Shown here one piece after another: positions 3,601-57,512 of a stretch of DNA of 58,035 bases. Below the pieces are notes generated by a model, which was given only the letters and a program-made list of their open reading frames with translations, was not told the origin of the DNA and searched no databases. The stretch is from assembly GCA_035477215.1 (NCBI GenBank), contig DATIKU010000037.1, positions 1-58,035 of the forward strand, written 5' to 3'. This DNA is from Spirochaetota bacterium. Lineage in GTDB: Bacteria; Spirochaetota; UBA4802; UBA5368. Made by a program: the position numbers and the translations under genes. Each line of letters starts with the position of its first letter. Within the stretch, counting starts at the first letter, position 1.

Positions 3601-3762
3601 TCACGGAAAATCCACCCACACGCTCCCGTCGCACCCATGACGTTCGCGTTGCCGCGCGATATACGCGAGGTGGTTCCGCAGATCGTCCATGTCGCGGATT
3701 ATGTGATCGTGGAATGATTTTTGCCATCGAAACGGCGGATGGGGTATATTTTTTTCTTGATT
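3601..3762 (-). pseudogene. C-terminal remnant of a Y1/REP-associated tyrosine transposase
   Basis: On the minus strand an open frame ends at TGA 3603-3601 and encodes the C-terminus typical of RAYT proteins: PPFRWQKSFHDHIIRDMDDL then NHLAYIARQRERHG. The catalytic HUH and Tyr parts are missing; upstream the frame closes with TAG at 3765-3763. About 45 codons survive out of the usual 150-200. It lies beside palindromes 3552-3591 and 2535-2586, so these palindromes are good candidates for its former REP-like substrate. It overlaps the promoter proposed for the following gene. Confidence 0.7.
3721..3750 (+). promoter_or_regulatory. Candidate promoter for the VapBC-like pair
   Basis: TTGCCA (3721-3726) and TATATT (3745-3750) have an 18-base spacer, about 50 bases before the antitoxin ATG. 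Confidence 0.4.
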
Positions 3763-3803
3763 CTATATAAATCATCGTTACCTTTGAAACAGGAGAACCC
3801 AGC

Positions 3804-4013
3804 ATGAACAGCGTCAGAAAAATATACAAAGAAATATCGCAACTCCCCGGCGCGGACAAAAAAGCCCTGCTTATGCGTCTTGTAAACGATTTGCGCTCAG
3901 ATGAAACTGAAAGGGCCCATTCAATTTTTGAAATCAAGGGTGTTGGAATCGACATCTGGAAAGGCATGGATGCCCAGGAATACGTCTCGAGCGAACGAGA
4001 TTCATGGACCTGA
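3804..4013 (+). CDS. Antitoxin of a PIN-domain toxin pair (VapB-like)
   Basis: This is a 69-residue protein. Helical N-terminus VRKIYKEISQLPGADKKALL, then a short C-terminus SIFEIKGVGIDIWKGMDA and EYVSSERDSW. The G(V/I)G-(x)-(I/D)-W-x-G-x-(D) plus E-R-x-SW tail is typical of antitoxins encoded just ahead of PIN toxins and probably wraps the toxin. The gene overlaps the toxin start by 10 bases, so translation is coupled. It is preceded by AACAGGAGAACCCAGC, with AGGAGA nine bases before the ATG. No recognisable DNA-binding motif beyond the short helices is visible. Confidence 0.75.
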   Translation: MNSVRKIYKEISQLPGADKKALLMRLVNDLRSDETERAHSIFEIKGVGIDIWKGMDAQEYVSSERDSWT

Positions 4014-4447
4014 ATACCATCATTCATAACCACCGGAGAATAATGATCGACACCGCGCCGATCATTTATTTTATCGAGGAAAACCCCGCATACGGTCCGT
4101 TCATGGAAAGCATGATAGTGGCCGCGACCGATAAAGAGTGCGTTCTCATGACGTCGGTTATAACCCTTGTGGAAGTACTCACGCACCCTCTGCGCATGAA
4201 CAAGCTCGATATCGCGGAGAAGTATCGCACCGTCCTTGTGGATTCTAAGAATATTATTATGTATCCCATCGATACGCTCGTTGCCGAACGCGCGGCCGAA
4301 TTACGGGCACGGCATCAACTTAAAACACCCGATGCCCTCCAAATCGCGGTTTCGCTTGAAAACAACGCTACGTTGTTTATCACCAATGACAACCATATAA
4401 AAAAGGTGGAAGATATCGAGGTAATCGTGTTAAGCGAGTTTTTGTGA
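4004..4447 (+). CDS. PIN-domain RNase toxin (VapC-like)
   Basis: A complete PIN-domain protein of 147 residues. The acidic site is intact: Asp in RIMIDTAPIIYFIEE, Glu in ITLVEVLTHP, Asp in LKTPDALQIAVSL and Asp in LFITNDNHIKKV. Such proteins cleave tRNA, rRNA or mRNA in a metal-dependent way and are held inactive by the adjacent antitoxin. The first Met gives ten residues before the usual IDTAP start, but the overlap with the antitoxin and the lack of another ribosome site favour it; ATG at 4043 is the alternative. In contrast to the truncated PIN protein at 194-472, nothing essential is missing. Confidence 0.85.
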   Translation: MDLNTIIHNHRRIMIDTAPIIYFIEENPAYGPFMESMIVAATDKECVLMTSVITLVEVLTHPLRMNKLDIAEKYRTVLVDSKNIIMYPIDTLVAERAAELRARHQLKTPDALQIAVSLENNATLFITNDNHIKKVEDIEVIVLSEFL

Positions 4448-4745: not shown

Positions 4746-6107
4746 TCACCGCAACACCACCCCCAGCGCCTCCTCCATCGCCATGGCCGTGCGCGCAAGG
4801 TCCTCGTCGGAATGCGCCGTGGAGAGAAAACCCACCTCGTAGCCCGACGGCGAAAGGTACACGCCGCGGGCGAGCATCTCGCCGTGGAAGCGGCCGAAGG
4901 CCTTCATGTCGCAGGCGCGCACCTGGTCGACCGTGGTGATGGAGCGCCGGTCGGTGAAGTAGAGCGCGAAGATCGAGCCCATCTGGAGCGCGAGGAGTTT
5001 CCCCGCGTATTTTTCGGCAAGCGGCGAGAGGAGCGCACGGAAGGTTTCGGCCTTTTTGTCGAGCAGCCTGTAGGCGTCGATTTTTTCGAGCCTGGCGAGC
5101 GTGGCGATGCCGGCGCGCATGGCGAGCGGATTGCCCGAGAGCGTGCCCGCCTGGTACACGGGCCCGTCGGGGGCGACCTTCGCCATAATCTCCTTCGACG
5201 CGCCGTAAGCACCCACCGGAAGCCCGCCGCCGATTATCTTGCCGAGCGTGGTGATGTCGGCGCGCACGTCGAAGTATTCCTGCGCGCCGCCGCGCGCCAG
5301 GCGGAAGCCCGTTATGACCTCGTCGAAGATGAGGAGCGCGCTGTACGTATCGCAGAGCGCGCGCACCGCGTGCAGGTAATTTTTACGCTTACGGTCCACG
5401 CGCCCGATCGCACCGGCGGCCCTGTCGTCCCTAACGGCGTACTCATGGCTTTCATACGGCGGGATGAGCCCGTAATTGCAGGGGACCGGCTCCATGATCA
5501 CCGCGGCGACCGAGCCCGCGTGTTTTTTAAGCGCGTCCTCCAGGCGGTCGAGGTCGTTGTACGGCACCACGACCGTGTCGCGCGCGTTGTCGGCCGTCAC
5601 GCCGGCCGAGTCGGGCGTGCCGAAGGTCGCCAGGCCCGAGCCCCCGGCAACCAGCAGGTGGTCGGCGTGACCGTGGTAACAGCCGTCGCACTTGATTATC
5701 TTGTCGCGTCCCGTGTATCCGCGCGCCAGCCGCACCGCGCTCATCACCGCCTCGGTGCCCGAGCTCACGAAACGGACTTTCTCTATCGAGGAAAAACGCG
5801 CCACGACCATCTCCGCGAGCTCGACTTCGTGGCGGTTGGGCGTGCCGAAGCTGGTGCCGCTGTGCGCCGCGTCCACTACGGCGGCGACGACATCCCCGTC
5901 GGCATGGCCCAGAATGAGCGGCCCCCACGACATGCAGTAATCGATATAGTCGTTGCCGTCCTCGTCGAAAACGTGCGCGCCCGCGCCTTTTTTCATAAAC
6001 AGCGGATTTCCGCCGACGGATTTGAACGCGCGCACCGGCGAGCTCACGCCCCCGGGCATCAGTTCGCACGCGCGTTTGTACAGGGAAACGGATTTTTCGA
6101 TTTTCAT
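4746..6107 (-). CDS. hemL: Glutamate-1-semialdehyde 2,1-aminomutase
   Basis: This PLP enzyme converts glutamate-1-semialdehyde to 5-aminolevulinate in the C5 haem pathway. It shows the whole family pattern: LMPGGVSSPVRAFKSVGGNP at the N-terminus, SSGTEAVMSAVRLARGYTGR, CYHGHADHLLV, the Asp that pairs with PLP in LLIFDEVITGFR, the Schiff-base Lys in TTLGKIIGGGLPVGAYG, and AGTLSGNPLAM. The protein is 453 residues from the ATG at 6107; a TTG upstream is less likely. It is about 20-25 residues longer than usual. An Arg-rich charged insertion (YESHEYAVRDDRAAG then AIGRVDRKRKN) sits between IPP and the helix leading to the FDEVITGFR motif. The gene is alone, convergent with the orphan hicB, with no other haem gene in the window. 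Confidence 0.95.
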   Translation of the reverse strand: MKIEKSVSLYKRACELMPGGVSSPVRAFKSVGGNPLFMKKGAGAHVFDEDGNDYIDYCMSWGPLILGHADGDVVAAVVDAAHSGTSFGTPNRHEVELAEMVVARFSSIEKVRFVSSGTEAVMSAVRLARGYTGRDKIIKCDGCYHGHADHLLVAGGSGLATFGTPDSAGVTADNARDTVVVPYNDLDRLEDALKKHAGSVAAVIMEPVPCNYGLIPPYESHEYAVRDDRAAGAIGRVDRKRKNYLHAVRALCDTYSALLIFDEVITGFRLARGGAQEYFDVRADITTLGKIIGGGLPVGAYGASKEIMAKVAPDGPVYQAGTLSGNPLAMRAGIATLARLEKIDAYRLLDKKAETFRALLSPLAEKYAGKLLALQMGSIFALYFTDRRSITTVDQVRACDMKAFGRFHGEMLARGVYLSPSGYEVGFLSTAHSDEDLARTAMAMEEALGVVLR

Positions 6108-10402: not shown

Positions 10403-12229
10403 CTAAAAAAATATCGTGCTTCCTTCCTCTCGCTCCGCTCCCTCGCGCATTTCGTCCAGAAACGAGAGCAGCATCATCCTCTTGTAATCGCCTTCCTCGC
10501 CGGCGTCGGCGACGCTGCGTTTAATCCATTCCGTATCGCCCCCGAAGACGGCGCGGTCCTCTTCAAAACCCGACGATGGATCCCGCAGAAGTTCCCGAAC
10601 GTCCCGCACGATATCGCCCAGGGTGCGCCTTGTGATGCGCAGCAGGGCGGACCGCTCCTCCTGCTGGCCTATGAATTCGATGAAGTGGCCGCTTTTCTCC
10701 CCGATCTGTTCAAGCACCTTCCGGTAATTGCTGCGCGATTCGGCGACGCTTGCGGCGACCCTGGCGATCGATTCGATTCCCTCGCGGAGGCGCCGCTCCT
10801 CCATGTCGAAGCTTTCACGGTATTTTTCCATGTCGGCCTGCATCGCTTCCATTATTCCGCCGTGAAGGCTGTTGAGGCCGTCGACGATACGCTTGATCTC
10901 CTTGGGCAGCGAGCTCACTTCGGAGAGTGTGCCTTCCAGCGCGCTCCGCAGACGGTGGTGACGGGCGAGCTCGATGCGCGTGATCATGGTGATGATCTCG
11001 AACCGGCGGGCGACGGCACCTATCTGATCGAAGAAAAGCCCGAACCCGAATACGATTGAAAGCACGCGCCCGGCCTGATCGTAGAGTCCCCGCCTGCCGC
11101 CTATTATCTTTTCTATTTCGTCGATATAACGCTTCCTTGTTTTCTCCATGCTGTCGTAAATATCGTCCATCCCCTTGAGGCTCTGAGGGATCGTAAGGCT
11201 GTCTCCTTCGCCGCCGTAGTCCGCACCCTCAATTATCTTCCGTATACCGGAGAAACCCGCGGCCGCCTGTTCCATTATAAGATCGAGATGACGCGTGATG
11301 CTGCCGATTTTTTCGCGGATCATCACCAGGGCCATGTTCGTAAGCCGGGCGCTTCCCGCGCTCTCGCGGGCCGCGCGAAGGTAGCGGTCGTACCCCGAAG
11401 CCATCTCCTCCGTAAGGTAAATGATTTTTTCAATATCCTGCCTCAGTACGTCCTCCATGCTCAGGTGGTCGATGACGCCGCGTATCGAATCGTCCACTCC
11501 GTCCATCGAGGCGACCATCTGTATCACGTCGCCGGCCGCTTTCTCGAGCCCGCCCGCAATCCGGTTGAAAACGCTTCCGCTCTCGGCACCGAACCGTGAA
11601 AGATACTTTTCATACGCCCCGGCCTGTTCGCTCCTGGCGGCACCGAAATCGCTGAATGCGTCGTTGAGGTCTTTGATCAGCCCGGCGAACCTCGTTGATA
11701 TCTCGTTCGCGTCGCGGGAGAGGTTTCCCATCTCGTACGAGATCCTCGCCAGCGCCTCTCCCTCTGCGCCGGTTTTCTTGGAGATGATCATCGTGTTCAC
11801 CGAGTGAATTTCAATGGCCTCGATGATATCGATAATCTCCTCCACTCTCCGGGGTATCTCGAAGCTGCGTTCGATACCCGCCATCACATTGTCACTTATT
11901 GACTCATTTCCGCGCAGTATCTCCAGTGAGCGGGCGATTACACTTTCCATCTCCCGCTTTTGTGTGTTGACCACCTTCCGGATAAACGTATCCTCTTCGC
12001 CTTCTTCCCCGATGGCGTAAAAATATTTTATATGGGGAAACACCACCGACCTGAAATCGCGAAGCCTCAGGGCCGCGCGTATCAGGAATTCACGCGTAAC
12101 GCCGAGTATGTTCTTCGCGTTGTCGCGCAGATGAAGGAACTCCGCGCTGACCGCGTCTATGATGTCACCGACCGGGCGGACACCCGCGGGAGGCCCTTCC
12201 TTAAGGTTGTTGGCGATCACGGGTGCCAT
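10403..12229 (-). CDS. Soluble MCP-like coiled-coil protein with two degenerate signalling tips
   Basis: This 608-residue protein has no membrane segment, no signal peptide and no HAMP, and is almost entirely helical. Two places align without gaps to the MCP hairpin tip. Residues about 138-172 (IEIHSVNTMIISKKTGAEGE then ALARISYEMGNLS) keep N, I, G, G, E and L of the canonical tip. Residues about 405-441 (VARRFEIITMITRIELARHH then LRSALEGTLSEVSSL) keep IE-AR and EV--L. Most receptor-kinase contact residues are altered. It sits between cheB and the last cheW. I infer a scaffold or a cytosolic modulator of the array that arose by duplication of an MCP signalling domain. Family name unknown. Confidence 0.6.
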   Translation of the reverse strand: MAPVIANNLKEGPPAGVRPVGDIIDAVSAEFLHLRDNAKNILGVTREFLIRAALRLRDFRSVVFPHIKYFYAIGEEGEEDTFIRKVVNTQKREMESVIARSLEILRGNESISDNVMAGIERSFEIPRRVEEIIDIIEAIEIHSVNTMIISKKTGAEGEALARISYEMGNLSRDANEISTRFAGLIKDLNDAFSDFGAARSEQAGAYEKYLSRFGAESGSVFNRIAGGLEKAAGDVIQMVASMDGVDDSIRGVIDHLSMEDVLRQDIEKIIYLTEEMASGYDRYLRAARESAGSARLTNMALVMIREKIGSITRHLDLIMEQAAAGFSGIRKIIEGADYGGEGDSLTIPQSLKGMDDIYDSMEKTRKRYIDEIEKIIGGRRGLYDQAGRVLSIVFGFGLFFDQIGAVARRFEIITMITRIELARHHRLRSALEGTLSEVSSLPKEIKRIVDGLNSLHGGIMEAMQADMEKYRESFDMEERRLREGIESIARVAASVAESRSNYRKVLEQIGEKSGHFIEFIGQQEERSALLRITRRTLGDIVRDVRELLRDPSSGFEEDRAVFGGDTEWIKRSVADAGEEGDYKRMMLLSFLDEMREGAEREEGSTIFF

Positions 12230-12232
12230 CCT

Positions 12233-13297
12233 TTATGCCCTCATTATCGCTTCTGGAATTTTCTCGAGGGGCAGCACCTGTTCGGCCCCGCCGCGCTTTA
12301 TCGCTTCTTTCGGCATGCCGAAAACCACGCAGCTCTTTTCGTCCTGGGCGATGGTATGCGCGCCCGCGTTACGCATCTCGAGCATTCCCGCCGCCCCATC
12401 GTCGCCCATGCCGGTCATGATGATGCCCAGCGTATTTGCCCCAGCGTTCTTAGCGGCCGAGCGAAACAACACGTCGACCGAGGGACGGTGGCGGCTCACC
12501 AGCGGGCCGTCGTTTACCGTCACGTAATACTCGTCGTCCCTGCGGTTTAGCAGCACGTGGTGCCCGCCCGGGGCTATAAGCGCCTGGCCCAGGCGGACCA
12601 TATCGCCGTGCGCGGCCTCCTTTACCTCTATCGCGCAGATTTCATCCAGGCGCTCCGAGAAGGCCTGCGTGAACCCTTCGGGCATATGCTGTACGATCAC
12701 GATACCCGGTGACTGTTTCGGAAGCGCCGTCAGCACATATTCGATGGCCTGCGTCCCGCCGGTCGAGGCCCCGATGGCCACCACGCGGTCTTTCGTGCGC
12801 GAGATGGTCCTTCCGTCCCATGGAGTCAGGACGCTGTCGGCGGTCAGCTTGGGCTTGATCTTTATGTCGGCGCCCGGCCGTACCGGCATTTTCGCAACCT
12901 TCGCCTGCGCTGCCGACTTGACCGCATCGGTCAGCATGGTTACCGAGTCGTATAGAAATTTCTTGAGCTCGAGCGACGGCTTGGAAAGCACATCCACGGC
13001 GCCGGCGGCCATGGCCTGCATGGCCGTCTTTCCGTGCGCGGTGAATATGATCACCGGCGTGGGACGCCGGGCCATTATTTCCTGCAAAAAGGTTATGCCG
13101 TCCTTGCGGGGCATCTCGACGTCGAGAATGATGACGTCCGGCCACTCCCGGTTGAAATGGTTTTCGGCGAACACCGGGTCCGACGAGGCGCCGATAACGT
13201 TTATCTCCGGGTCCGAACTCAGTATCTCGGTAAGCGCCTGTCTCAGGAGCGCCGAGTCGTCGACGATGTGGACCCTTATTCCTCCCTTTTTACCCAT
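12233..13297 (-). CDS. cheB: CheB protein-glutamate methylesterase/deamidase (operon 1)
   Basis: CheB demethylates receptor glutamates for adaptation. Residues 5-125 are a receiver with phospho-acceptor Asp59 ([13 protein letters not shown]). After a linker comes the esterase: catalytic Ser178 ([10 protein letters not shown]), His204 ([10 protein letters not shown]) and Asp300 ([11 protein letters not shown]). All active-site residues are present and the length (354) is normal. The gene overlaps cheD by 22 bases and ends three bases before the MCP-like gene starts. It pairs with cheR two genes upstream. Confidence 0.97.
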
Positions 13298-13761
13298 ACG
13301 TTACCGCTCCAGAGATCGAATATTATGTTATGCGGCCGCGTTCCGCCTATCCGCGCCCTGCGAATATGGAAACCGTGCCTCTGCAGAAGCCCCTCTCCCG
13401 CCGTTACGTTCTTCGCGCCGATATCGAGCCTTCTGCCCTCGATATCGGGGAACATGTTCGCGCCTCCGAACATCTTGACATGGTACTCGCCCGGCGTTGT
13501 GCCCGCCTGGCGTATTTCCTTTAGAACAAGCTCCACGGCGTCGCTGCCATAGCGCGGGTCAAGCCCGCTCTTCGAAGGCTCATTTTTATGTGACAGGATG
13601 TAATGGCACATCCCGCCGATACGTTTTTTCGGGTGCCACAGGCAAAGAGCGACACAGGATCCCAGCACGGTCCGTATGCGGGTATAGGCATCGCTCCAGT
13701 ACAACTCGCCCGGCTGAAGAAATATCTCGAGCACGTAATCGGGGGCGGGAGGCAACTTCAT
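13276..13761 (-). CDS. cheD: CheD receptor glutamine deamidase
   Basis: CheD deamidates Gln in receptor methylation helices and, in systems with CheC, binds and stimulates CheC. This 161-residue protein has the catalytic Cys36 in [12 protein letters not shown] and His53 in [10 protein letters not shown], followed by [14 protein letters not shown] and [11 protein letters not shown], the family signature. It overlaps cheR by 4 bases and cheB by 22. No free CheC gene lies in this operon. The only CheC domain in the window is fused to the other CheA (53701-56889), which suggests cross-talk. Confidence 0.96.
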
Positions 13762-52152: not shown

Positions 52153-52512
52153 TCAGGCCAGGGCCTTTTCGGCGGCCTTTTGGAGTCTTTCGGGAGGAAA
52201 TGGCTTAACGACAAAATCCTTCACGCCGATCTTTATCGCCCGCGTAAGAAGATTTTCCTGGCCCAGCGCCGTTACCATTATAATTCTGGCCTTCGGATCA
52301 AGGGTCAGGATCTCCTCCGCGGCCTGGATTCCATCCTTTTCCCTCATCGTGATGTCCATGGTAACCAGATCGGGTTTCATCTTTTTATAGAGCTCGACCG
52401 CCTGATTGCCGTTTTCCGCCTCGCCTATAACCTCATGTCCCCTTGGCACCAGGGCGTCCTTCACGAGCGTCCTCATGAATTTCGCGTCATCAACAATAAG
52501 GATCGTAGCCAT
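52153..52512 (-). CDS. cheY: CheY-type response regulator (cluster 2)
   Basis: 119 residues. Acidic pair in ILIVDDAKFMR, phospho-acceptor Asp53 (LVTMDITMREKDG), Thr in RIIMVTALGQE and Lys in DFVVKPFPPERL. GGAGTGGGG precedes the ATG. Its own promoter lies upstream at 52563-52591. This is the likely output of the CheA-CheC kinase two genes upstream. Confidence 0.94.
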   Translation of the reverse strand: MATILIVDDAKFMRTLVKDALVPRGHEVIGEAENGNQAVELYKKMKPDLVTMDITMREKDGIQAAEEILTLDPKARIIMVTALGQENLLTRAIKIGVKDFVVKPFPPERLQKAAEKALA

Positions 52513-52562
52513 TTCCCCACTCCATATCAAGGCATTAGCGTCCACTATACTCCCGACATCGC

Positions 52563-52640: not shown

Positions 52641-53693
52641 TCAGGCGTGTTCCATGATCGTTTCGGCGATCCGGTACAGCGAAGCCACCTCGTCGATCAC
52701 CCCGGCCTGCACCGCAACCCTGTTCATTCCGTAAACTACCGATGTATCTTCGTCCTGGGCGATGGTGTATCCGCCCTTTTTCTTGATACTGGATATACCG
52801 TCGGCGCCGTCCCTTCCCATTCCCGTCATTATCACCGCCACGGAATCGCTTCCGTAGGATTCTGCGACCGAATCGAACAGAACGTCGATCGACGGGCGGT
52901 GCCCGGAAACCTTCTCGCCCCTGAATACCCGCAACACCCCCCCGCCGGTGCTTTTATCTATCCGCATATGCGAATGCCCCGGCGCTATATACCCAAAACC
53001 CGGACGCACCCTGTCTCCGTCCTCGGCCTCTTTGACGTTCAAGCCGGAATTCACATTGAGCCGTTCGGCGAAGGCGCGCGTGAATCCCTCGGGCATGTGC
53101 TGCACCACCAGCACGGGCGAGCCGAAATCGGTCGGCAGTTTCTGAAAAACCTGCAGGAGCGCCGACGGGCCTCCGGTCGATGTGCCTATGGCCACCACCC
53201 TGTTTACCGGCTCCCTGGGGCGCCGGCCTTCCGTTTTCCGAGCTTCCGGCTCCCGGCGCTCGAGATGTCCGCCCGGATGAAGCTTGATTTTTGACTTATG
53301 GACCGATTTGACCTTTCTTATGAGAAGGTCGGAAATTTCGTCCACCGAAATCGAAATAGCGGTTGAGGGCTTCGGGATAAAATCCACCGCTCCGTATTCA
53401 AGCGCCCGAAAGGTGGCCTCCGCCCCGTGCTGGGTCAGCACGCTCATCATGATGACCGGCTTTGGATTGGTCTCGACAATTCGGCGCAGGGCCTCGAGAC
53501 CGTCCATAATGGGCATCTCGATGTCGAGCGTAATGACGTCCGGGTTCAGCGTCTGGTTTTTGAAGATGGCGGTCTTGCCGTTATTCGCCGTCCCAACGAC
53601 CTCTATATCAGGGTCCTTCCGCAATATATCCGAAACGATCTTTCTTACCAGCGCAGAATCGTCCACCACCAGAACTTTTATCTTTTCCGGCAT
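52641..53693 (-). CDS. cheB: CheB methylesterase (cluster 2)
   Basis: 350 residues. Receiver Asp57 (VITLDIEMPIMDG), Ser in VAIGTSTGGPSALL, His in [12 protein letters not shown] and Asp in MTGMGRDGADG, all intact. It starts 7 bases after the CheA-CheC stop. No CheR lies in this cluster, so it must use the CheR of operon 1 or another elsewhere. Confidence 0.96.
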   Translation of the reverse strand: MPEKIKVLVVDDSALVRKIVSDILRKDPDIEVVGTANNGKTAIFKNQTLNPDVITLDIEMPIMDGLEALRRIVETNPKPVIMMSVLTQHGAEATFRALEYGAVDFIPKPSTAISISVDEISDLLIRKVKSVHKSKIKLHPGGHLERREPEARKTEGRRPREPVNRVVAIGTSTGGPSALLQVFQKLPTDFGSPVLVVQHMPEGFTRAFAERLNVNSGLNVKEAEDGDRVRPGFGYIAPGHSHMRIDKSTGGGVLRVFRGEKVSGHRPSIDVLFDSVAESYGSDSVAVIMTGMGRDGADGISSIKKKGGYTIAQDEDTSVVYGMNRVAVQAGVIDEVASLYRIAETIMEHA

Positions 53694-53700
53694 GGGCCCC

Positions 53701-56700
53701 TTATCTCAACTTTTCCACAATCTTCTTCAGCGACTCCGTCTCGGGGAGCACCATGAGCTTCCCGATGACCCTGTCGTTCCGGTAGTAAAACTCCGTGTCC
53801 ATCACCAGCACGTAATCGTTGGAGATATTGTGCAGGACCAGGATCGAATCCAGTATCGACTGCATGAAATCATGCACGATGGTCGGCACCGTGGGCTTTA
53901 TCGCTATCGCCGTCTTTTCGGAGATGACGTTGACCACGGACGACCCCACGATGTTCGTCACCTCCTTGAGGGCCGATTCGCCGTCCTCGTCGAGCTCGCG
54001 CGTTTTGCCGCTTTCGATTCCATACAGCATGTCGATGAGCTCAAAACCGGCCTCCTCCGCCAGGCCGAAAAGTATCGTACCTTTAATGTCCCCCACCAGG
54101 GGCATGTAGACGCCGATATAGATGTTGTCCACTTCGCCAAAATTCTCCGGGACCTTTTCCACGGGAAGGAGCTCGACCGTGGGGATGGAAAGGTCGATCT
54201 GCTTGCCGAGGATCTTCGATAGCGATTCCGCGGCGTTGGTGATGCCCACGTTGGCGAGCACCTGCACGCGCTCCATGTCCTCCCAGGTGATTCCCAGCGA
54301 CTTCTTGATATGGCCGTCGGGCTCACCGCTCTCGACGGTGGCCCGTATACTGTTTTTTAACTCGTCTTTGAACGATCTGAGAGCATCACGCACCTTCGCA
54401 TCAATCGCCGATTCGTCTTCCCCGGCCTTAGCGGTTTCCCCGGCCGGCGCGGTGCTTTTCGCCGGTGCGTAAGCCGAACCAGCCTTCGACGGCGCGGTCG
54501 GAATCGTATCCCGGCGCTCGAATATGATATCTTCCTTTATCTTTTCGACCGGGGCCTTCTCGGTCCGGGCGGCCTCCGGTCGCGAGGGAATCTCCTTTGC
54601 CTGAGGCGCGGGGGATGCCGTCTCATTTTTCGCGACGGTCTTCTGAAAATCCCTCTCCCTTCGCTCCGCGGCGGAACGCTGCAGGTCGGTGATCTCTTTG
54701 ATTTCAACAACCTGCGCCGACTTCTTCTCCATGGCGCGCTGACGCTGCATCCGGGAAAGCCGGTCCTGATCCGTAATCACCCTGTTGATCATGGATGCGA
54801 TATCGAGTATGAGGCAGATGCTTCCGTCACCCAGTATGGACGCTCCGGATAGCCCCTCGACGTTGGCGTAGTTCTGTTCCAGCGACTTGATCACTATCTC
54901 CTGTTTGCCTTCGAGATGGTCGACGATGAGACCGATCTTTCTGGTGCCGTAGCCCACAATGACCACCGGCACCTTGCGGTCGTCCTCGATACCGCTTTCG
55001 GTCCCGACGAACTCGTTCAGCCGCAGAAGCGAAAGGATCTCTCCCCTGAGATTGATGACTTCGTGCCCCTCGATCGTAGTTATATCGGCGTACGAAATCT
55101 TTATGGTCTCGATAACGTCCGAAAGGGGAATGGCATACAGCTCGTGACGAACCCTGACCATGATCGCGGGAATGATGGCCAGTGTCAGGGGGAAGGAAAG
55201 CAAAAATCGGGTCCCCATACCGGGCTCGGTCTCGATGGTCACGTTGCCGTTCAGCTCGGAGACGATCTCCTTTACGACGTTCATGCCGACGCCGCGCCCC
55301 GAGATATCGGTCACCACGTCGGTGGTCGAAAAACCCGGATTGTAGATGAAATTATAAATTTCCTCGTTGTCCATGTTCGCCAGCATCTCCGGCGATGCGA
55401 GCCCCTTTGCGAGCACCTTTTTTTTGATCCGGCTGGCATTCAGTCCCCGACCGTCGTCGCTCACTTCCACAAATATCTGGTTCCCGGACTGGTGGGCGTT
55501 AAGCGCCACCGTCGCGACGTCGGGTTTGCCGAGCTTTCTGCGCTCCTCGGCGGTTTCCACCCCGTGATCGATCGCGTTGCGGATAAGATGCATCAGCGGC
55601 TCGCCGATGGCGTCAATGACCTTCTTGTCGAGCTCGGTCTCTTCGCCCTTTATCTGCAGCGCCACCAGCTTCCCGAACTCCCTGGCGAGGTCGCGCACAA
55701 GGCGGTTGAACCGTGAGAACACCTGGCCCACGGGCACCATCCTCGTCTTCATGATGCCGCCCTGCAGGTCTTTCGCGATCCGGGACATCTGGTCCATGCG
55801 GTTCTTGAATTCGTTGGTGACGGACTTGTCTAAATTCGCCTTGCGCATCTCTTCATGGAGGCGGAAGAAACCGGAGTTGGCGATGACCAGCTCTCCCACG
55901 TTGTTCAACAGCAGGTCGAGCTTGTCCACCGATACCTTAACGATCCTGATGGCGGCGGTCTTGCGCTCGTCCTTTCTCCGGATCGTATCTATCTTGTATT
56001 CTTCCTCTTCATCATCGTCGGCTTCCTTTTCGGCGAGATAATCGGCCGGGGTTTCTCTCCCTTTCGACTCCTCGCTGAAAAGAGTCTCTTTCTCATGGAA
56101 CTTCAGCACCATCTTGTCGTTCTTTTGGCTAAGGCTTATCTTTTTAAGATCTATACGCGCAACCTGGTCGATCTCACAGGCCCTGCGAACGTCTTCCACC
56201 GTTACCGTCGTAAGGATCACCATCTTGAATATATCATTTTCGTTGTTTTCGCGAAGCACGTCCAGCGACGGCATCATCGCAACGATCGCGGCTATCTTCT
56301 CGAGATTGGCCTGGATAAGCTGCGCCTTGATCCACTTCATCTGCGCGGACGGATCGACGAAAACGATCACCTCACAGCACGATATGCCGTTCTCAAGCCC
56401 GTCCTTAACCTGCCGCATCTGCGCGGCGGTGAGCGTCGTCTTTGGAATGTTCCCGATCTCGGGCCCGGCTTTTGCCGGGCGTTCCGCGGGCGATGCCGCC
56501 GCCACACCCGCGCCGATCTCCCTGATCCGCGCGATGATCTCCGAAAGGTCATGGTCGGGCTTTTCCCCCGAACCGACCGTATCAATGACCGAGCTTATAA
56601 CGTCGAAACAACTGAACAGTACGTCCACGATCGTCGGCGTCACCTGCATGGTCCGGTCACGGATCCCCTGCAGCAGGTTTTCCATCTTGTGGGCCAGATC

Positions 56701-56889
56701 GCTCAGATCGTTAAGGCCGACAAATGCCGCCGAACTCTTCAGCGAGTGCGCCGCTCTGAAAATATTATTGATTATGTCGTTGTTGTCGGGATTCTTTTCG
56801 AGCTCAAGAAGGTTCTGGTTGAGCTCCTGAAGCTGTTCGTCAGCTTCTTCAAGGAAAATGTCCTGATATTCACCCAGGGAAAACGCCAT
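53701..56889 (-). CDS. cheA: CheA kinase fused to a C-terminal CheC phosphatase domain
   Basis: 1,062 residues. The Hpt domain has His48 (FRAAHSLKSSAAFVG). Residues 150-260 hold a P2-like region, then a polyacidic linker (ADDDEEEE). Dimerisation is at about 315-400. The ATPase has N-box LIRNAIDHGV (435-444), VSDDGRGLNA and GRGVGMNVVK, and a CheW-like domain lies at about 570-705. A 165-residue low-complexity linker follows. Residues 870-1055 are a CheC domain. The second active-site pair is present (Glu976 and Asn979 in ALKEVTNIVGSS). In the first, Asn880 is kept but the Glu is replaced (VLANVGITNAAESL). Fusion of kinase and CheY-P phosphatase in one chain is unusual. The start ATG at 56889 is chosen over an upstream one. 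Confidence 0.93.
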   Translation of the reverse strand: MAFSLGEYQDIFLEEADEQLQELNQNLLELEKNPDNNDIINNIFRAAHSLKSSAAFVGLNDLSDLAHKMENLLQGIRDRTMQVTPTIVDVLFSCFDVISSVIDTVGSGEKPDHDLSEIIARIREIGAGVAAASPAERPAKAGPEIGNIPKTTLTAAQMRQVKDGLENGISCCEVIVFVDPSAQMKWIKAQLIQANLEKIAAIVAMMPSLDVLRENNENDIFKMVILTTVTVEDVRRACEIDQVARIDLKKISLSQKNDKMVLKFHEKETLFSEESKGRETPADYLAEKEADDDEEEEYKIDTIRRKDERKTAAIRIVKVSVDKLDLLLNNVGELVIANSGFFRLHEEMRKANLDKSVTNEFKNRMDQMSRIAKDLQGGIMKTRMVPVGQVFSRFNRLVRDLAREFGKLVALQIKGEETELDKKVIDAIGEPLMHLIRNAIDHGVETAEERRKLGKPDVATVALNAHQSGNQIFVEVSDDGRGLNASRIKKKVLAKGLASPEMLANMDNEEIYNFIYNPGFSTTDVVTDISGRGVGMNVVKEIVSELNGNVTIETEPGMGTRFLLSFPLTLAIIPAIMVRVRHELYAIPLSDVIETIKISYADITTIEGHEVINLRGEILSLLRLNEFVGTESGIEDDRKVPVVIVGYGTRKIGLIVDHLEGKQEIVIKSLEQNYANVEGLSGASILGDGSICLILDIASMINRVITDQDRLSRMQRQRAMEKKSAQVVEIKEITDLQRSAAERRERDFQKTVAKNETASPAPQAKEIPSRPEAARTEKAPVEKIKEDIIFERRDTIPTAPSKAGSAYAPAKSTAPAGETAKAGEDESAIDAKVRDALRSFKDELKNSIRATVESGEPDGHIKKSLGITWEDMERVQVLANVGITNAAESLSKILGKQIDLSIPTVELLPVEKVPENFGEVDNIYIGVYMPLVGDIKGTILFGLAEEAGFELIDMLYGIESGKTRELDEDGESALKEVTNIVGSSVVNVISEKTAIAIKPTVPTIVHDFMQSILDSILVLHNISNDYVLVMDTEFYYRNDRVIGKLMVLPETESLKKIVEKLR

Positions 56890-56969: not shown

Positions 56970-57512
56970 TTACATATAACCGTGGGCCGTTTTCTCCCCA
57001 TCGGAGTACGAGAAGAGAATGTTATCAAGATTGAGGATGACGACAAGTCGTCCGGATACACGTCCTATGCCCTTAATGAACTCGTCCGATATGCCTTCTA
57101 TCAGATCCGACGGCGGGTCTATGTTTCTCCCGGGCATCCGGATAACCTGATGGACGTTATCCACCAGCAGCCCTACCAGTTTCTCGCCGGTTTCCACCAC
57201 GATGACCCGCGTAAGGTCGGTGATATTCCCCTGCGGCAGGCCGAAGCGGAGGCGAACATCAGCGACCGGTATCACGGCCCCCCGGAGGTTGATGACCCCC
57301 TTTATATGCTCGGGGGTATTGGGAAGCCGCGTTATATCGGGCATCCTGATGATTTCGTGCACTTGAAGAATATTGATTCCATATTCCACATCATCCAGCA
57401 TAAAACTCACGATCTGTACGATCTCGCTTTCCGAAACGGCCGAGTCGGCACCGTCCCTGGCGGTCGCCGCCGTCACCCTGTTTACCATCTGCGTCAGCTC
57501 GTTAATGTTCAT
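56970..57512 (-). CDS. cheW: CheW coupling protein (cluster 2)
   Basis: 180 residues. A polar N-terminal helix of about 30 residues precedes the CheW fold: VSFMLDDVEYGINILQVHEI, IKGVINLRGAVIPVADVRLR and VGLLVDNVHQVIRMPGRNID. It is the first gene of cluster 2, 80 bases before the CheA-CheC gene. Confidence 0.94.
   Translation of the reverse strand: MNINELTQMVNRVTAATARDGADSAVSESEIVQIVSFMLDDVEYGINILQVHEIIRMPDITRLPNTPEHIKGVINLRGAVIPVADVRLRFGLPQGNITDLTRVIVVETGEKLVGLLVDNVHQVIRMPGRNIDPPSDLIEGISDEFIKGIGRVSGRLVVILNLDNILFSYSDGEKTAHGYM

Follow-up and report, generated by a model that had tools for sequence, protein, structure and literature searches.

The window, a stretch of 58,035 nucleotides from a Spirochaetota bacterium, carries on its minus strand a chemotaxis operon in which a CheA kinase and a CheC domain are encoded as one polypeptide. 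The fusion gene cheA::cheC (P0001; 53701..56889) is a single open reading frame of 1062 amino acids, from an ATG to a stop codon. It is preceded by cheW (56970..57512; Pfam CheW, E = 1.4e-39), the first operon gene seen in the window, and followed by cheB (52641..53693) and by cheY (52153..52545), whose product is the presumed substrate; all three were assigned by Pfam matches and synteny. The fusion had been recognized in the initial annotation, which left the strand unstated, and is borne out by the uninterrupted frame and by matches to both Pfam and PDB entries.

Residues 1-705 (54775..56889, minus strand) constitute the CheA part, with matches above the curated Pfam cut-offs to Hpt (residues 8-91), P2 (173-248), H-kinase_dim (316-382), HATPase_c (431-569) and CheW (576-703). 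The P1 domain (Hpt, E = 2e-19) contains the phospho-acceptor H48 in the motif RAAHSLKSSA; the P3 dimerisation, P4 HATPase and P5 CheW domains are all present, and the ATP-binding motifs were located. Residues 706-855 (54325..54774) form a fast-evolving linker, and the CheC domain occupies residues 870-1062 (53704..54282).

Judged by its sequence, the C-terminal domain is of the CheC type. The Pfam family CheC (PF04509) matches residues 971-1005 (E = 1.4e-9; 38.2 bits against a cut-off of 22), whereas the CheX family, matching residues 927-1007, stays under its cut-off (23.6 bits against 27), so that membership of CheX is not assigned. When the domain alone was compared with the PDB, it matched Thermotoga maritima CheC (1xkr, 2f9z) over 189 residues with E = 9.7e-20, and a profile of nine sequences of the domain, searched against solved structures, found CheC at 5.8e-25 as opposed to 0.14 for the best CheX. 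An AlphaFold model of the domain, predicted from nine sequences, is of low confidence (pLDDT 51); Foldseek ranked T. maritima CheC first for it, but a model of this quality does not bear on site geometry and carries no weight in the assignment.

The residues that the initial annotation had singled out, V877, N880, E976 and N979, are exactly as named. In the alignment to T. maritima CheC, E976 and N979 fall on the second catalytic pair, and V877 takes the place of the first catalytic Glu. Site 2 (residues 976-979, E-V-T-N; 53953..53964) is therefore an intact E-x2-N pair, and site 1 (residues 877-880, V-L-A-N; 54250..54261) has lost its Glu and kept its Asn. We compared 71 fused domains, 39 from the order to which the window belongs and 32 from elsewhere. 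All 71 have both the Glu and the Asn of site 2, a count to be read with caution: the profile used to collect and align the domains was itself built on such domains and favours those that keep site 2. Within the order, whose members share about 50-98% identity over the full domain, this bias matters little. An E/N pair at site 1 occurs in none of the 71, and in the order the position of the Glu is taken by V, L or I (39/39). Four unfused relatives (L102, L103, L115 and L110) all possess the site-1 Glu, and three of them the Asn as well. Because no fused domain retains the pair, the loss of site 1 is an ancestral one; the description of one site as intact and the other as lost stands, but the loss is not a decay confined to this genome. 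Since the first E-x2-N is missing, we class the domain as a one-site derivative of CheC rather than a canonical two-site CheC. It is probably active at its single remaining site. The Asn of the lost site (N880, 54250-54252, and its equivalents) is invariant in 39 of 39 fusions of the order even though the Glu is gone, which suggests that it has another role.

The distribution of the fusion was followed by scanning 59 genomes with PF04509 and 393 Spirochaetota genomes with the domain profile. The CheC domain was detected in 44 of the 46 genomes of the order. One open frame comprising kinase core and CheC domain was read in 38 genomes of the order, with the frame of the linker open throughout; three more encode frames of 1024-1025 amino acids, outside the 38 that were read out, and in another three (G006, G019 and G039) the fusion is broken or ended by contig edges. 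Outside the order, families f9, f10, f11, f22, f27, f28, f29, f34 and f41 also yielded fused frames, and the fusion-bearing genomes would span more than one class if the label 'same phylum' is taken to mean outside the class of the window. The joining of two genes by an assembly error or a frameshift in the linker might be suspected from the broken frames of one relative (L030 in G006), the one clear exception to the open frame; several genes are broken there, consistent with sequencing error, and no broken frames were found for the gene of the window. An artefact is refuted by the independent assemblies of the 38 genomes, together with the fusions in other families, and its probability is practically negligible. 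When plasmids were compared with the CheC domain by tblastn, the five hits were weak and distant; those that bear an annotation are labelled CheX and response regulator, and they are uninformative about CheA fusions.

Some f34 genomes encode a second, divergent CheA-CheC-like fusion besides the main one (L109 in G203, L117 in G185). In f41, the CheA fusions are about 1350 amino acids long (L100, L116), and their C-terminal match covers the second half of the domain only, which is possibly CheX-like. An unfused arrangement is seen in G050 (L118, 4217-7140, minus strand), where an 821-codon cheA frame overlaps the next frame, which encodes a CheC/CheX-like protein of 159 amino acids, by about 16 bases.

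Within the genus of the window, the CheC domain is under purifying selection as strong as that on the kinase core. Pairwise omega values (NG86) are 0.022-0.032 for the CheC domain and 0.031-0.039 for the P3-P5 core, compared to 0.28-0.30 for the linker, about ten times the value of the CheC domain; identity in the linker is 58-76%, as opposed to 92-96% in P3-P5. The P2 region, with omega of 0.10-0.19, evolves faster, which would fit a fused domain that serves as a non-catalytic docking or structural module, holding CheY near the kinase and replacing or supplementing P2. The loss of one of the two sites in all fusions, with its Asn kept in the order, would fit such a module as well. Docking alone, however, would not require that both catalytic residues of site 2 be invariant over many families, and P2 is still recognized by Pfam; we regard this explanation as improbable.

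The fused gene belongs to a constant operon in the order, cheW-cheA::cheC-cheB-cheY-scpA-scpB, often followed by a pheA-like gene. The che gene order is identical in f11 and f34, where it often includes scpA, and identity to the CheY of the window is 83-100% in the order and 75-81% in f11 and f34. A tree of the kinase core groups the order with f11 and f34 in a single supported clade (SH-aLRT 98). All fusions together are recovered as one group with an SH-aLRT of 78, in a tree with long branches and four unfused rows only; because this support is weak, the fusions of f22 and f41 and the second f34 copies may represent separate events. In f9, f10, f27 and f28, cheD directly follows the fused cheA::cheC (L049, L079, L091, L098, L111), and two of these loci, L049 and L098, continue with a free CheC/CheX-like gene.

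The reading we favour, and think rather likely as a whole, is that this CheA belongs to the main chemotaxis operon of the spirochaete order, which is inherited vertically, and that the C-terminus of the kinase has a CheC-type phosphatase of phosphorylated CheY (CheY-P) built in, acting as a local sink at the kinase. H48 would serve as the phospho-donor to CheY, and the flexible linker would keep the one-site domain (E976/N979) beside each kinase of the array, where CheY-P would be hydrolysed at the place of its production. The expected outcome is a briefer signal, in which the CheY-P that escapes the array is favoured. That the domain is catalytic, that it acts on the CheY of the operon and that it has this kinetic consequence we infer from the conservation described above. 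The tethering of source and sink, as proposed in the initial annotation, fits the invariance of site 2, but the proposal is not new: fusions of CheC or CheX with F1 CheAs have been described in Leptospirae, with a possible dual kinase and phosphatase function (Berry, Andrianova and Zhulin 2023, PMC10782961). The genome of the window encodes three CheAs and, as other candidate sinks, three CheX-like proteins above the cut-off (on contigs C14, C44 and C19), and CheY-P may thus have phosphatases besides the fused domain.

CheC domains can also act through CheD. D1007 (53869..53871, minus strand) aligns with an Asp of T. maritima CheC, 31 residues past the second catalytic Glu. From this spacing and the B. 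subtilis numbering, we take it to be the putative equivalent of D149 of Bacillus subtilis CheC. D149 is located at the CheD interface, and the D149K substitution lowers CheD binding with phosphatase activity kept; in B. subtilis chemotaxis, CheD binding outweighs hydrolysis by CheC, whose phosphatase role is minor (PMC3513319). Since D1007 is invariant in the order (D in 39/39 fusions), a secondary CheD-docking role of the fused domain is plausible on comparative grounds. A stronger version would have the kinase-fused domain capture CheD near the array at high CheY-P, thereby lowering receptor activity, with hydrolysis secondary. The B. subtilis precedent and the invariant Asp both agree with it, as do the retention of the equivalent Asp in all five fusions with an adjoining cheD and the MF motif, the contact to CheC, which is kept by two CheDs found across the order (29 of the 30 order CheDs read have it). 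In f11 and f34, however, the position of D1007 is mostly Gly; most of these fusions lost the Asp while E/N was kept, though their genomes have CheDs, mostly with MF. CheD docking is thus not the function that the fusions share. The operon of the window, moreover, contains no cheD, and we consider capture of CheD as the main function possible, if on the unlikely side. As a marker of CheD pairing with the fusion the MF motif was rejected, since CheDs often have it even in genomes whose fusions lack the Asp (f11/f34).

If CheD does dock, its identity is a separate matter. The initial annotation had proposed that the CheD of the second che cluster (13276..13761, minus strand; Pfam CheD, E = 1.1e-21) could link the two arrays. 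This protein makes a poor special partner: it is one of five CheDs in the genome, and its orthologues (63-79% identity) were found in only three of 43 other genomes of the order (G001, G005 and G007), each a member of the family of the window. CheDs of the types encoded on contigs C41 and C16, on the other hand, are near-universal, 43 of 44 order genomes having at least one. The case for a cross-array link through the CheD at 13276 is weak, as nothing favours it over these order-wide CheDs. The MF motif is present in three of the five CheDs of this genome, including that of the window, and absent from the two on contig C46. A combination of sink and docking may also be envisaged, in which the array-bound CheC domain, retaining one catalytic site and its CheD face, is an adaptation module in the kinase and traps the two order-wide CheDs under the control of CheY-P: it would hydrolyse the product of its own kinase and pull CheD, the receptor activator, off neighbouring receptors, and the f11 and f34 fusions, having lost the CheD face, would have retained the sink only. 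We put this forward tentatively, as an unlikely scenario. Whichever applies, the split between lineages in the CheD-contact residue makes the sink reading and the capture of CheD separable by experiment.

The kind of fusion and the idea of a dual function were thus published in 2023, and the gene of the window is a further, well-conserved and, for these spirochaetes, ordinary instance. It resembles the fusions of Leptospirae in that a CheC-like phosphatase domain sits on the CheA chain of a spirochaete. That paper (PMC10782961) names Leptospirae only, and its main text gives no analysis of the sites, linker, operon or CheD of the fusions; the likeness to its F1 CheAs is set here by the domain fusion and not by F class. 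What is added is that the fusion reaches over Spirochaetota families and lies in a constant operon, that its one-site state is ancestral, and that lineages differ in the CheD-contact residue. With the CheCs of T. maritima and B. subtilis the fused domain shares the whole-domain sequence match, the second E-x2-N and, in the order of the window, the Asp of the CheD interface; those proteins, however, are free and have two E/N sites, whereas this domain is tethered to CheA and lacks the Glu of site 1. A single functional E/N pair (here predicted) and a partial Pfam match below the cut-off are reminiscent of CheX, but the first half of the domain is a recognizable CheC repeat and the profile clearly separates the two families. 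Hybrid CheAs with a C-terminal receiver that serves as a phosphate sink (PMC10782961) likewise carry a signal-ending function on CheA; their sink is an acceptor resembling CheY, and that of the fusion is a predicted hydrolase. A phosphatase fixed to the kinase would alter where and for how long CheY-P survives, and provides a natural test of sink placement in signalling.

The other che clusters of this genome contain additional frames. The cluster on contig C46 (L106) includes two CheD-like genes (3714-4322 and 5223-5819, minus strand) without GGxxMF. In the second che cluster of the window, a 608-amino-acid frame (10403-12229, minus strand) has no Pfam match, and a frame of 703 amino acids lies near cheB in the C46 cluster.
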